Positions 1-5,045 of a stretch of DNA of 5,098 nt are shown one piece after another. Source of the DNA: an uncultured Solobacterium sp. (GTDB taxonomy: Bacteria > Bacillota_I > Bacilli_A > Erysipelotrichales > Erysipelotrichaceae); NCBI GenBank assembly GCA_900554555.1, contig USIC01000073.1, positions 1-5,098 of the forward strand. The letters are read 5' to 3'. The position numbers and the translations under genes are program-made. Numbering within the stretch: the first letter of the stretch is position 1; every line of letters begins with the position of its first letter. The notes under the pieces were generated by a model. The model saw only the letters and a list, made by a program, of their open reading frames with translations. It made no database searches and had not been told where the DNA came from.

Positions 1-1764
1 ATAGCCACCATGGTTTTGGTAGGTGATATTGAAGATGAAGTTCTTCTTATCTTTTTCCTTTTCGTAAGCCTCTTCTAGTACCTTGAAATTCTGTGCATCA
101 CTTGGATATCCATGGATTGTCTCTAGACCATCAAATGTTTCTGCGAAGACTTTATCCTGGTATTGTAGTTTCTTCCATGCGGAAGCACGGTTCCAGTTGG
201 TGGATTTACCAAGGTGAATACCGGTAGTAGTAAAGCCGCTTTGGTTAAAGTAGGAAATCATAGAAGGTACGTTTCTGTGCATATACATGTTGAATGGATA
301 TACACCACCCGCAAAGAATGCTGTTGTATTACCGGTTAATGATTCATATTCACTATTACATGTACCACCGCCACGTACATCGACGTAGAGGTTACCACGA
401 ATCGTATTATCTAAAGATAGAAAGTAAGGGATGATGTTATCGGCGTAGTTTGTACCACCAACATTCATATCCGCGAAGGATTCATTCATAACCATGATGA
501 TATTCGTTGGTTTTGTGACATTTGGATCAACGTTGGCTGCGGCACGTTCTTGAAGTTCTTTGCCAAGTTGTTTGAGGTCATCTACAGAATATCCTTCTGG
601 TTTCTTTGGCTGATCAGAGATGTATTGGTTTACAAGACCTGTAAAGCTAAGGGCTGTACCATCTGTTTGGAAGATGGATAATAGGTTCATATCCCATAGG
701 TAGTATTGACCAACACTATTTAAGAAGAGTGCTACAACAATAATCAAGATAGGATATGTTGCGTAGTATACGTTAATCTTTGTATTATCACGTGGTACAG
801 CGCGCATCAAGAGATAAATTAAGATGGCGATAATAATTGCGATAACCATGAAGTAACGAATCTGAACATGGTAGTTTGAGATGACATCTGCAGCTGTACC
901 AATTGCGGTTAAATCCCATGGTGCGATTGGACGGTTGCGGAATTGTGTTACGTACATGTTTATAATACCGAAGATAACAACAAACAAGTTACTAATCAGT
1001 ACTGAGATTGGTAATCGACGGAATATTAAGTAGAGTACTTTATATAGAATAATATAGATAGCAACGTTATAGAAACGATTCATCAAGTTGATGTAGTAGT
1101 AGTTACCAGTACAGATTTCTGACATAAAGAAGCACCAGATAGGAGCCGCTATTAACATCATTTCGTTTTCTGGAACGTGTTTTGCCCATGTAATCTTTTT
1201 ATCAATGAGATACGCAATGATCCAACTTAATATCAAAATGGATAGGTATACTGCAACCCAAGCAGCTTTTGGTAGGTACTCTTGGGTCTCGAGTTGGAGC
1301 CAGCCTTCAACACCGTTAACGGTTAGGTTAATGGTGTTGTCATTCGTATTGATGACCATACCTTGAGAGGCGATGATCTTGTTAGAGATACTCTCTGGTG
1401 TATACTCTGCAAGCTTAAATGGTCCAAATGACACATCAATCTTTGAGATAGCGATGTCTGTCTTTACGTTGTTAAAACCTAAACGTAAGGAGTTTGTAAC
1501 GATTGGGATATTACTGAGGTGAATTACTTCCCAAGATGGTTGTGCATCTAGCCATGTCTTATGAGAGTTATAGTTATAGTTTGCAAAGATTTCTTCTCCA
1601 CGATCGGTATTAAAGTTTGATACGACCACAGTACCTTGGATACCTTTTTTCATATGTACATCAAAGGAAAGATGTGGTGCATAAAACAGCAAGAACATTG
1701 CCGAGATGAGTAAGAACCATACGGCTCTACGTATATTTAATTTTTCTTTTATAATTTTCATCAT
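1..1764 (-). CDS. LtaS-family lipoteichoic acid synthase (sulfatase fold), C-terminus cut by window edge
   Basis: This is a membrane phosphoglycerol transferase of the LtaS type, which in Firmicutes polymerises glycerol phosphate from phosphatidylglycerol on the outer membrane face. I translated 588 codons without a stop; the frame leaves the window at base 1. Residues 13-29 form TM1, about 30-163 a polar extracytoplasmic region, and six further hydrophobic segments lie near 167-186, 202-219, 231-248, 252-273, 303-320 and 333-350. The catalytic domain begins near 420. It shows NESF (E428, metal ligand), GGGTCNSE (T468, the nucleophile position), H517, W524, R526 and QNHGG (H585). The 517/524/526/585 spacing mirrors H347/W354/R356/H416 of S. 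aureus LtaS. The Asp-His metal pair expected near residue 644 lies outside. The start is the first of two adjacent ATGs, with AGGGAAG seven bases upstream. The TM1-ectodomain-TM2 module is additional to the usual five-TM LtaS plan. The exact polymer made (LTA or another glycerol-phosphate glycopolymer) is not determined. Confidence 0.9.
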   Translation of the reverse strand, partial: MMKIIKEKLNIRRAVWFLLISAMFLLFYAPHLSFDVHMKKGIQGTVVVSNFNTDRGEEIFANYNYNSHKTWLDAQPSWEVIHLSNIPIVTNSLRLGFNNVKTDIAISKIDVSFGPFKLAEYTPESISNKIIASQGMVINTNDNTINLTVNGVEGWLQLETQEYLPKAAWVAVYLSILILSWIIAYLIDKKITWAKHVPENEMMLIAAPIWCFFMSEICTGNYYYINLMNRFYNVAIYIILYKVLYLIFRRLPISVLISNLFVVIFGIINMYVTQFRNRPIAPWDLTAIGTAADVISNYHVQIRYFMVIAIIIAILIYLLMRAVPRDNTKINVYYATYPILIIVVALFLNSVGQYYLWDMNLLSIFQTDGTALSFTGLVNQYISDQPKKPEGYSVDDLKQLGKELQERAAANVDPNVTKPTNIIMVMNESFADMNVGGTNYADNIIPYFLSLDNTIRGNLYVDVRGGGTCNSEYESLTGNTTAFFAGGVYPFNMYMHRNVPSMISYFNQSGFTTTGIHLGKSTNWNRASAWKKLQYQDKVFAETFDGLETIHGYPSDAQNFKVLEEAYEKEKDKKNFIFNITYQNHGGY

Positions 1765-1880: not shown

Positions 1881-2822
1881 TTAACTGAAATATACGAACT
1901 CATCTTGTGGTTTTTGGTAGTTTTGAATGCGGTTTGCGTAAAGGACAAGAGTCTTTCCACCATTATCTAATGGGACGGTCTTAAGGTTACCTTGCACTTC
2001 ATACCAGTTATCCTTTACAAGTTCTTCTACTTTCACACCTGTGACAGTTAAGCCGCACAGGCTTGTATCATTTGCACAACATACCATTGCTTGTCTACCC
2101 ATGATAAATGTTTGATGATAGCCTGGTAATGTCTCGGTGAACTTACCGCGTAGGATGATTTCTTTTCCATCGTATTTATCTGGGTTTTCAATCGCATCCA
2201 TATACCAGATGCCATAATCATCATCTTTGATATCGATGATAGGCGCGTTGATATTGAATGGTAGTACACCTTCTTTAAGAGTGACCTGGGCACCGTGTTC
2301 GCCTTCGTAGAAAATCTGAGCTTTTTTATTAATAGCTTTGATATTGCCACGCAGCATTGATGCGGAGGTATCTGGTGTACAACGATTACAGATAATTGTA
2401 TCGCTGTACTTTAACTGTTCGTAAATAACAGAACGCATTGCGTTAATATACATTTGGAAAGTTGTCGCATCTACTGTTGTAAGAATCTGTACCAAAGGCC
2501 AGAAGTTTGGCATCTGTGACAAGATAAACGGTGTGATTGCGAGGGTTCCATTATATTCAATAAATACTTGGTTTGGATGATAGATGGTATCTAACTCGCG
2601 AATCTTTTCTACGTTTAAATCCTCTGGAGAGTCCATATATTCAACAAATGCTTTGCGCTCTGCGAGGTATTTATCGTTGTATCGAACTTCACCTTGTTCA
2701 AAACAGATGATTAACGTACGGCTATTTTCTTCCATAAAGGATGGGTCGTTAAGTGTGTCTAAGATTAAAGAAGTTTTACCGGAATCAAGAAATCCCGTAA
2801 AGAGATAAACAGGGGTTGCCAT
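1881..2822 (-). CDS. CobW-like P-loop GTPase fused to a TIGR03943/DUF1980-like C-terminal domain
   Basis: The 313-residue protein has two parts. Residues 1-185 form a CobW/COG0523-like G domain: Walker A GFLDSGKTS (10-18), a Walker B-like FIEYNG (87-92) where classical members have ExPSG, TTVDA (115-119), and NRCT (146-149) at the NKxD position. The CxCC metal motif is absent; the equivalent region is CFEQGE (C40). Residues about 205-300 resemble the C-terminal domain of TIGR03943/DUF1980 proteins such as Bacillus YcgQ: NPDKYDGKEI, a beta-rich stretch, MVCCANDTSLCG (C248, C249, C256), then NWYEVQG. YcgQ-type proteins are thought to pair with a YcgR-like permease. No transmembrane segment or signal peptide is seen, so it is likely cytoplasmic. 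The ATG follows the upstream TAA after one base, suggesting translational coupling. A role in metal delivery or sensing is inferred from family and partner; the metal is unknown. The domain assignment is by motif recognition only. Confidence 0.82.
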   Translation of the reverse strand: MATPVYLFTGFLDSGKTSLILDTLNDPSFMEENSRTLIICFEQGEVRYNDKYLAERKAFVEYMDSPEDLNVEKIRELDTIYHPNQVFIEYNGTLAITPFILSQMPNFWPLVQILTTVDATTFQMYINAMRSVIYEQLKYSDTIICNRCTPDTSASMLRGNIKAINKKAQIFYEGEHGAQVTLKEGVLPFNINAPIIDIKDDDYGIWYMDAIENPDKYDGKEIILRGKFTETLPGYHQTFIMGRQAMVCCANDTSLCGLTVTGVKVEELVKDNWYEVQGNLKTVPLDNGGKTLVLYANRIQNYQKPQDEFVYFS

Positions 2823-2823
2823 C

Positions 2824-3999
2824 TTACTTCACCGCAAAGATTTCTTTAATGCGATCAACATCTACCTGATCACCAATGACAGTGATTAAACCAGTATAAG
2901 CAGGGGAACCAATGCGGATATCTGCATCTCCTGGTACATAGTCAAAGAATAACCAACTTCCATCTGTACTTGGGACGATGCCCTTAGCACGGATGATATG
3001 CTCATCTAACTCGGAAAGTGCTAGTGCAATGTCTTCTACAGAGTATTTGTTTACTGTTTCAATACCGATTGATGTGAATACTTCATCCGCATCGTGTCCA
3101 TGATGGTGATGATGGTGATGTTCATGATCGTGATGATCATGGCCACAACAGCAGCTTTCTTCCTCATCATGTTCTTCTTCCTCGTGGTGGTGATGGCAGC
3201 AACATTCTTCATCATCGTGATGATGTTCATGGTGGTGCTCTTCATGTTCATGAGAACCACAACAGCAGCACTCTTCTTCCTCATGGTGGTGATGATGTTC
3301 GTGTTCGTGGTGGTCGTGGCCACAGCAACAATCGTCATCGTCGTCTTCGTCATGACAACCACATCCACAACAGCAGCATTCTTCTTCCTCTTCGAGTTCT
3401 GGGAAGCCGTCTGTAGAGCCTTCCATTGCGTCGATGATGGCTTGACCAGAGAGGTCATCCCATGGGGTCGTGATGATTCTTGCGTCATGGTTTAATTCAC
3501 GGATGATTGCGATATCCTTTTGTAATGTTTCTTCATCAACGAGTTGTGTTCTGGATAAGATGACACAAGCAGCTGTGGAAATCTGATCATCGAAGAATTC
3601 CTTGAAGTTTTTATGGTAGATTTCACAACGCTTTGCGTCTACAACAGTACTGTAACTATTTAGCTGTAAACCTTCTACATCTTTTACGACTGCTAAGATA
3701 TCGGATAATTTACCAACACCGGAAGGTTCAATGATGATGTGGTCAGGGCTATACTTCTTGATTACTTCGTGTAAAGCATTGCGGAAGTCGCCTTGTAATG
3801 TACAGCAGATACATCCACTGTTGATTTCATTGACAACGATACCGGAATCTTTTAAGAAACCACCGTCAATTCCAATTTCGCCAAATTCGTTTTCTACAAG
3901 CACAACCTTTTTGCCTGCGTATACTTCTTTGATTAACTTTTGTATCAATGTAGTTTTTCCAGCTCCTAGAAAGCCGGAGATAATATCGATCTTTGTCAT
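2824..3999 (-). CDS. COG0523/CobW-family metal-chaperone GTPase with a His/Cys/acidic-rich insertion
   Basis: This 391-residue cytoplasmic GTPase belongs to the family that includes CobW, YjiA, B. subtilis ZagA and eukaryotic ZNG1, which use GTP to place metal ions into client proteins. The G domain (1-200) has Walker A GFLGAGKTT (9-17), GCICC (the CxCC metal motif, C63, C65, C66), EPSG (91-94) and VVDA (119-122). SRTQ (149-152) sits at the NKxD position. Residues 201-306 are a low-complexity stretch with about 19 Cys and 35 His, the rest nearly all Asp/Glu/Gly. Residues 307-391 form the CobW C-terminal domain. I chose the ATG at 3999 because GAAGG lies seven bases upstream; a GTG at 4017 in the same frame would put that site inside the gene. 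Zinc is the most likely metal from family precedent, with nickel or cobalt also possible. No Zur box was recognised upstream. It forms a two-gene unit with the fused P-loop gene downstream. Confidence 0.93.
   Translation of the reverse strand: MTKIDIISGFLGAGKTTLIQKLIKEVYAGKKVVLVENEFGEIGIDGGFLKDSGIVVNEINSGCICCTLQGDFRNALHEVIKKYSPDHIIIEPSGVGKLSDILAVVKDVEGLQLNSYSTVVDAKRCEIYHKNFKEFFDDQISTAACVILSRTQLVDEETLQKDIAIIRELNHDARIITTPWDDLSGQAIIDAMEGSTDGFPELEEEEECCCCGCGCHDEDDDDDCCCGHDHHEHEHHHHHEEEECCCCGSHEHEEHHHEHHHDDEECCCHHHHEEEEHDEEESCCCGHDHHDHEHHHHHHHGHDADEVFTSIGIETVNKYSVEDIALALSELDEHIIRAKGIVPSTDGSWLFFDYVPGDADIRIGSPAYTGLITVIGDQVDVDRIKEIFAVK
3082..3399 (-). repeat. In-frame repeats encoding a Cys/His/acidic metal-binding tract
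   Basis: This stretch encodes residues 201-306 of the COG0523 GTPase. Five modules each begin with a CCC or CCCC cluster (starting at residues 208, 224, 244, 266 and 283) followed by His/Asp/Glu runs. At DNA level a 26-base unit beginning CCACAACAGCAGCA (plus strand) occurs at 3257-3282 and 3365-3390 with one mismatch. A version one codon shorter lies at 3143-3165. The units are 114 and 108 bases apart, whole numbers of codons, which fits growth by in-frame duplication or slippage. The skewed composition also opens long but meaningless frames on both strands. Confidence 0.85.
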
Positions 4000-4021: not shown

Positions 4022-4049
4022 ATTATATCCTTTGCGTCAAATTCACCAA
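4022..4049 (-). promoter_or_regulatory. Candidate sigma-A promoter for the two-GTPase unit
   Basis: The 59-base gap after guaC contains a perfect -10, TATAAT (4027-4022), with TTGGTG (4049-4044) 16 bases upstream as a modest -35. A start site near 4015 would leave a leader of about 16 bases that still holds the GAAGG ribosome binding site for the ATG at 3999. Between the hexamers is a short inverted repeat, TTTGACGCAAA (4042-4032), which could be an operator, but it does not look like the known Firmicutes Zur box. No terminator separates guaC from this unit, so read-through is also possible. Confidence 0.5.
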
Positions 4050-4058
4050 ATAGAATGC

Positions 4059-5045
4059 CTAATGCGAATCACCATTGAAAATAGAATTCTTTACAATGAC
4101 ATAATCAACATAACGAATTGCATTTAAATCTTTTCCGCCGGCATAAGAGATGGATGATTGAAGGTCTTGTTGCATTTCGGTTAGTGTATCCATGATAGAA
4201 CCTTTACATGGCACAAGCATCTTTTTGCCTTCCACATTTTTACGGGTGCCTTTTTGATATTCAGAGGCACTACCGAAGTATTCTTTCATTTCAATACCAT
4301 CTTGCATGACGGTATTACCTGGTGATTCGGTATGCCCAGCAAATAGGGAACCAATCATAACCATACTTGCGCCAAAGCGAATCGACTTCGCAATATCACC
4401 GTTTGAACGGATACCACCATCAGCAATGATTGGCTTACGTGCAGCTTTTGCACACCAACGCAAGGCAGCCAACTGCCACCCACCTGTGCCAAAGCCTGTT
4501 TTTAATTTTGTGATACATACTTTACCAGGACCAATACCAACTTTCGTTGCGTCTGCGCCTGCATTTTCAAGTTCACGAACACCTTCAGGGGTTCCTACAT
4601 TACCTGCAATGACAAATGTATCAGGTAGGTGTTTTTTGATATGTTTGATCATATTGATGACGGCGTTGGAGTGACCGTGAGCAATATCAATTGTAATGTA
4701 GTCCGGAACTAGGTGATGACTTGCAAGGTCTGCAATGAAATGATATTCATTTTCTTTTACACCAACACTAATGGAAGAAATTAATCCTTTGTCGTTCATC
4801 ATCTGTACAAACTGAAGACGAGTTTCAGGAGTGAAACGATGCATGATATAGAAATATCCGTTCTCCGCAAGCTTAATTGCTAGAGATTCATCAATGACTG
4901 TCTGCATGTTTGCTGGGACGACTGGCAATTTAAAGCGATGTTTGCCAAATCGTGTTGTTGTGTCACATTCTGAACGACTGTTTACAATACACTTATTTGG
5001 TATTAGTTGAATGTCTTCGTAATCAAAAACTGTAAAATTTTCCAT
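4059..5045 (-). CDS. guaC: GMP reductase
   Basis: GuaC reduces GMP to IMP and ammonia with NADPH, letting the cell convert guanine nucleotides back toward adenine nucleotides in the cytoplasm. The 328-residue protein matches the Firmicutes GuaC form in length and sequence along its whole (beta/alpha)8 barrel. Landmarks are [12 protein letters not shown] near the N-terminus, SRSECDTT (23-30), PVVPANMQT (41-49), HGHSNA (123-128), AGNVGTPE (147-154), the catalytic loop [11 protein letters not shown] with C177, GFGTGGWQ (184-191), IADGGIR (207-213), MIGSLFAG (230-237) and the YFGSAS substrate loop (256-261). The lack of a CBS domain insert and the loop sequence distinguish it from IMP dehydrogenase. 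The ATG at 5045 gives the usual family N-terminus. A TTG (5096) and an ATG (5090) lie in frame upstream but would add residues encoded across a hairpin. The ribosome binding site is poor (AAGTGGG) and lies in the 3' arm of that hairpin. Confidence 0.96.

Follow-up and report, generated by a model that had tools for sequence, protein, structure and literature searches.

A Cys/His-rich tract in a COG0523-like NTPase paired with a second cobW-domain protein: a possible metal reservoir

Introduction

The question of how metals are stored, chosen and passed on by COG0523 proteins is raised again by a stretch of 5,098 nucleotides from an uncultured Solobacterium sp. (contig USIC01000073.1), hereafter the window, where a protein of this type (W1) carries a long tract of Cys, His, Glu and Asp residues and stands next to a second cobW-domain protein (W2). 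His-rich regions are widespread in the family, and the accessible text of a survey reports them in ∼40% of 887 COG0523 proteins, some with up to 29 His (PMC2770081). W1 resembles COG0523 proteins in general by its cobW domain and CxCC motif; it differs from them by a tract with 34 His and 19 Cys, by its W2 partner and by LSRTQ in place of NKxD. The novel part is the setting, namely the pairing with W2 and the existence of permease-linked relatives, and not the tract alone. An initial annotation of the window had described a metallothionein-like tract inserted in a COG0523 GTPase. This picture was right in outline; W2, the permease-linked relatives and the altered G4 motif went unremarked in it.

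No study of the W1–W2 pair was found in a literature search for which most subscription papers were outside reach, and the titles and abstract openings retrieved under the same limit included none on poly-Cys tracts in COG0523 proteins. In the literature on DUF1980 and TIGR03943 nothing was found on function.

Genes of the window and architecture of W1

The features of the window are compiled in Table 1. The sulfatase-domain product reads as LTA synthase-like. A plus-strand ORF of 133 aa (window 3094-3495) overlies the W1 tract and most likely is a mirror of its His and Cys codons, not a gene. A search of plasmids gave 0 matches. Across 80 loci from the genome collection no general conserved neighbour other than W2 was seen, and the surroundings vary by lineage.

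Table 1. Coordinates of genes, domains and motifs in the window
Feature	Position	Strand	Evidence or remark
Sulfatase-domain protein, cut by window edge	1-1764	-	Pfam
W2, cobW-domain protein no. 2, fused to DUF1980_C	1881..2822	-	Pfam; locus pairing; model pLDDT 89.9
DUF1980_C of W2, residues 192-311, OB-like fold	1890..2249	-	PF21537 E 4e-17; Foldseek PriB/SSB ~1e-4
CC..D motif of W2 (C248, C249, D252)	2067..2081	-	Invariant in 28 aligned W2
W1, COG0523-like NTPase, 391 aa, with tract	2824..3999	-	PF02492 E 5e-38; ATG 3997-3999; translation
CobW_C-like C-terminal domain of W1, ~residues 303-391	2827..3093	-	PF07683 in relatives; ordered in model
Cys/His/Glu/Asp tract of W1, residues 203-300, five CCC/CCCC clusters	3100..3393	-	Composition; pLDDT <50
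G4 position of W1, LSRTQ instead of NKxD, residues 148-152	3544..3558	-	Aligned to LTKTD of YjiA
GCICC metal-site motif of W1, residues 62-66	3802..3816	-	GCxCC in 172/172 relatives
Walker A of W1, GFLGAGKT, residues 9-16	3952..3975	-	Invariant in 31 rows of alignment
TTGAC-N8-TATAAT box before W1, unusual spacing	4022..4040	-	Motif counts
guaC	4059-5045	-	Neighbour upstream of W1 in minus-strand reading

In W1, residues 6-176 match the cobW domain (PF02492, E 5e-38; Pfam), and the Walker B Glu is present in the sequence IIIEPSG, with E91 invariant in the 31 aligned rows. CobW_C (PF07683) is matched in 25 of 31 aligned family proteins; W1 of the window has no such match, and in its AlphaFold model the C-terminal domain is ordered from about residue 304 onwards. 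A fold search gave Zn-bound YjiA as the nearest solved structure for both W1 and W2, with modest TM-scores (0.34-0.45).

The tract is in frame in the 391-aa minus-strand ORF (2824-3999) and lies between the cobW domain and the modelled C-terminal domain, just where the initial annotation had located it. Its core (residues 203-300) contains 34 His, 26 Glu, 19 Cys, 12 Asp, 5 Gly and 2 Ser, and the five modules led by CCC or CCCC are all found there (CCCC-G-C-G-C, CCC, CCCC, CCC and CCC). For the wider span 3082-3399 the counts of 19 Cys and 35 His, with mostly Asp and Glu for the rest, were correctly given, but the length is 106 residues (201-306) and not 102. The tract is predicted to be disordered, with pLDDT <50 at residues 206-216 and 218-302 of the AlphaFold model. 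Neither the tract nor residues 39-69, the span holding GCICC, is placed with confidence in this model; therefore, no geometry linking tract and GCICC is claimed.

Distribution and turnover of the tract

A first protein search scored 7,995 candidates. The best 120 of them are 90-99% identical to W1 and all possess the tract (120/120), with lengths of 97-133 residues and an extra module in two (P0001 and P0002). Single sequences among these 120 represent up to 28 contigs from several sources, and one named match is from a Solobacterium MAG. In the 80 loci, the tract is present in the linker wherever the contig permits reading, and its types extend from pure His/acidic repeats through modules with CCC, CEC or CxCGC.

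The interdomain stretch was measured with domain models in 179 of 191 W1 proteins (172 unique), the 12 others being truncated or giving no score for the C-terminal domain; L053 and L075, whose contigs stop within W2, entered this count as ‘none/unseen’. In the 142 unique W2-partnered W1, the median length of the stretch is 104 residues (35-180), with median contents of 36 His (10-70) and 5 Cys (0-25). At least 10 His are found in all of them (142/142), while 37/142 have no Cys and CCC occurs in 27/142. W1 of the window ranks joint third for Cys and 74th for His, and is the only one with CCCC. The comparison of linkers foreseen in the initial annotation confirms that the tract is exceptional in Cys and His, but as a trait of the subfamily and not of W1 in particular; its Cys-rich form is one of many. 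A second protein search, biased by its Cys-rich seed L075, listed 120 proteins, with CCC in 70 of the 120 matches listed; the highest numbers per tract among them are 27 for Cys and 88 for His.

A tree of 109 representatives of the 172 sequences was obtained after thinning at 80% identity and with the tract left out; it is a quick build with SH-aLRT support only and several long branches. For the grouping, L053 and L075 were moved to the W2 group, and L021, also cut by a contig end, stayed ‘none/unseen’. Among the W2-partnered rows, CCC changes at least 17 times on this tree, and the state of having six or more Cys changes 23 times or more, so that poly-Cys looks like a recurrent choice. Cys, His, Asp and Glu dominate the tracts in lineages with differing repeats, and the composition of the tract is conserved while the sequence itself turns over.

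W2 and its pairing with W1

The cobW domain of W2 is a weaker Pfam match than that of W1, and GCxCC is absent from its sequence. Against TIGR03943, W2 scores 70.5 bits, under the curated cut-off of 88.8, and neither an ArsP_1 permease nor a DUF1980 N-terminal domain is matched by Pfam in W1-W2. In Foldseek, the W2 model (pLDDT 89.9) combines one domain nearest to YjiA and HypB with an OB-like domain, the whole-query TM-scores being <0.5. By its sequence, the CC..D motif in DUF1980_C is a candidate metal-receiving site.

W2 adjoins W1 in 71 of the 80 loci, and in the remaining 9 the contig ends with W1. The gene order is inverted in some loci (e.g. L077, L096 and L104). The association was also followed in 245 genomes, all from the class to which G002 (Anaerostipes butyraticus) belongs, read as Clostridia. 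With limits drawn visually where the tables show gaps (W1 to 1.8e-105, W2 to 6e-84), tract-type W1 and W2 both occur in the identical 44/245 genomes; below these limits, G135 has a partial W2 match (3e-48) and no W1 match.

Permease-linked relatives

W1-like cousins, ∼300-345 residues long and with a minimal tract or none, have as neighbour either a cobW-ArsP_1 permease protein or a permease encoded separately; a DUF1980 protein also adjoins 13 of the 14 permease-linked W1-like genes. Permease partners were recognized by Pfam in L123, L128, L138 and L139, with second cobW and DUF1980 genes too in L131; the remaining ones were called by models for which four of these loci had served as the source. 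This ArsP_1 and DUF1980 set resembles W1-W2 in its W1-like protein, second cobW domain and DUF1980_C, and differs from it by the permease and by little or no tract where that of W1-W2 is long.

In the interdomain stretch of the 14 permease-linked proteins, the number of His ranges from 1 to 13 with a median of 3, and that of Cys from 0 to 5. The difference in median His, 3 against 36 in W2-partnered proteins, gives a Mann-Whitney p of 8e-10, uncorrected for kinship. On the tree, the partner type changes three times, once owing to L021, where the contig stops after W1; therefore, the link between permease and tract may amount to one or few events. The rule is blurred by several loci: L138 and L139 have a permease yet 12-13 His, L157-L162 (six W1) have short linkers of 35-58 residues with 10-19 His despite a W2 partner, and no partner lies within the stretch examined for L164 (19 His) and L173 (15 His). 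Close homologues lacking the tract, a finding that, with metal stoichiometry or activity unchanged, the initial annotation would have counted against its reading, do exist, but mainly among permease-linked or partner-less relatives. At the genome level, ArsP_1 of any kind occurs in 12/44 tract genomes versus 105/201 other genomes. Since G172 and G247 carry both the soluble and the permease-linked version, there has been no simple replacement of one by the other.

G4 motif and nucleotide

At the G4 motif, the Asn position is Ser in 135/142 W2-partnered W1, and the Asp position is Gln in 90/142 and Asp in 28/142. According to PMC2770081, G3E proteins are marked by an intact NKxD. W1 has LSRTQ in place of this motif of COG0523/G3E NTPases and for this reason is filed here as COG0523-like. 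Given that YjiA reads LTKTD in the alignment with W1, accepted COG0523 members vary at G4 too. The earlier designation as a COG0523 GTPase with a CxCC site stands for the COG0523-like fold family and for GCICC, the GCxCC motif being present in 172/172 relatives, but not for the G4 motif; as this motif determines guanine specificity, ‘GTPase’ is a provisional name. The sequence suggests that the nucleotide specificity of W1 may differ. A nucleotide other than GTP is possible, because the relative ZagA is described, in the part of PMC11340326 that is accessible, as a GTP or ZTP user.

Metal clues from known systems

Metallothioneins are small free-standing proteins with dense Cys for several metals, arranged in CxC and CC patterns. 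The resemblance invoked in the initial annotation holds for composition, dense Cys ligands being common to both, and goes no further: the W1 tract is inserted in a 391-aa protein, has more His than Cys and displays contiguous CCC(C).

A closer parallel is CobW2 of C. metallidurans. In the accessible text of PMC11340326 it has an internal His-rich region predicted to be random coil and binds ∼7 Zn in the open form, and the authors interpret it as a Zn store. CobW2 is an experimental precedent for a metal store within a COG0523 protein. It shares with W1 the GCxCC motif and a large internal His-rich region, whereas that region is called His-rich, with poly-Cys clusters and a W2-type partner unmentioned in the same text (PMC11340326). 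CobW2 is also Zur-regulated according to this text (PMC11340326); ahead of W1 no Zur box was found, and W1 has an altered G4. Zinc is further suggested by B. anthracis, in which Zur binds ahead of an operon that includes an ArsP_1 permease, as stated in the accessible part of PMC6336718; thus, the permease-linked cousins may be tied to zinc.

Upstream region of W1

The TTGAC-N8-TATAAT box precedes W1 in 38 of 49 upstream regions from L001-L057, where 55 of the 57 loci are from Erysipelotrichaceae. On both strands of 558,632 bases, the motif has 45 matches, 44 of which precede W1. A matrix built from 39 sites and applied at the 99% limit recovers 11 of the other 91 W2-partnered regions, where a background of random genomic sequence rather than promoters predicts 0.9, and 1 of 14 permease-linked regions.

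Known metalloregulators were sought with the consensus sequences of Zur (B. subtilis-type), Fur, MntR and NikR, in 139 W2-partnered, 14 permease-linked and 16 other upstream regions, with simple base shuffles as reference. For Zur, 3 sites were counted in the 139 W2-partnered regions versus 4.0 expected, and 0 versus 0.4 in the 14 permease-linked ones; NikR gave 15 versus 17.4 in the 139. Fur sites were more frequent than expected in both sets (19 versus 8.6 in the 139, 4 versus 1.6 in the 14), as were MntR sites in the 139 (6 versus 0.6). These Fur and MntR excesses may be due to AT-rich promoters.

Functional interpretation

Once W2 and the missing permease are taken into account, the Cys tract becomes understandable, as one version of a trait of the subfamily. 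The reading favoured here, which has about an even chance of being correct, is that the tract is a disordered metal reservoir in a soluble relay of two NTPases, W1 and W2, probably for zinc. It is favoured on account of YjiA as the nearest structure, predicted disorder, the CobW2 precedent, the Zur-bound ArsP_1 operon and the gene neighbours. The tract would act as a tethered reservoir of many metal ions, most likely Zn(II), with a capacity of at most ∼13 four-ligand sites if all 53 Cys and His were engaged. It would keep metal near GCICC, which would take up one ion upon nucleotide binding; nucleotide hydrolysis would then hand the ion on via W2, through CC..D of its DUF1980_C, or to a client docked on W2. 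W1-W2 would share an ancestor with the permease-linked set (W1-like protein, cobW-ArsP_1 permease, DUF1980 protein), and in the soluble version the reservoir would occupy the place of the permease. A more specific scenario is possible but tentative: the soluble relay would descend from a permease-linked ancestor by loss of the permease, fusion of the second cobW domain with DUF1980_C and growth, within the first, of a metallothionein-like reservoir that is quickly remodelled, perhaps with a nucleotide other than GTP (e.g. ZTP), and with a conserved TTGAC-N8-TATAAT control box of its own.

The subfamily offers a natural series at one position, from little or no tract through His-only to mixed His/Cys tracts rebuilt repeatedly, in systems with and without permease. 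Thus, the reservoir role is directly testable. If the reading is true, a conserved two-protein system may have given up a membrane pump and stores metal in one of its own proteins instead.

A somewhat doubtful alternative confines the tract to storage or detoxification, as a metallothionein-like sponge on an NTPase, uncoupled from the nucleotide cycle. Cd, Cu(I) or Zn would be suitable metals for poly-Cys modules, and both the extreme ligand density and the turnover of modules at constant composition accord with a sponge, as does the term storage protein applied to CobW2 in the accessible text of PMC11340326. However, in the relatives read the tract keeps its place between the two domains of this NTPase, mostly with the same partner alongside, and GCxCC is retained in 172/172, which argues against a tract uncoupled from the enzyme.

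A nickel or cobalt chaperone, comparable to HypB or CobW, is unlikely. Many Cys clusters favour softer metals, and cobalamin-type surroundings were met in only 1 of 18 neighbourhoods read by eye, even if W1 of L071 directly follows a CobQ-like gene. The His stretches of HypB bind Ni (accessible text of PMC2770081), but the permease cousin of B. anthracis is Zur-bound (likewise, PMC6336718).

That the tract is a functionless, neutral low-complexity expansion through repeat slippage is improbable. Lengths vary widely, and the codon identity between repeats exceeds expectation by >0.2 in 26 of 132 relatives’ tracts, where the repeats look recently duplicated; in 60/132 the excess is ≤0.05. In the window, the codons are scrambled and the residues kept: adjacent codons for the same residue are identical in 24 pairs and synonymously different in 26, and at the best self-shift 9 of 20 identical residues share their codon (expected about 0.53). 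The window tract is no simple microsatellite. Because its codons are mixed and repeat codon identity is not above that expected from composition, the tract is probably old, with its residues kept. Slippage also fits poorly with the His content of at least 10 in 142/142 W2-partnered W1 and with the dominance of Cys, His, Asp and Glu across lineages with different repeats. Finally, the artefact of sequencing or assembly raised in the initial annotation, to which repetitive sequence is prone, is practically out of the question with the tract in all of the best 120 homologues and up to 28 contigs per sequence from several sources.

Additional loci

Some neighbourhoods deserve mention. W1-like genes without W2 adjoin znuA in L166 (4080-6151) and a cation-efflux gene in L167 (3069-5164). 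In L071 (4358-7155), where the tract-type W1 comes directly after the CobQ-like gene, the genes further upstream look cobalamin-like by eye. Extra W2-like genes are present in L154 (4737-5669), L155 (3460-4395) and L156 (3662-4597) with no tract-type W1 alongside; one of them adjoins a distant tract-less cobW protein and the other two adjoin a similar protein, which in L155 has FeMo-cofactor/FKBP domains (Pfam).
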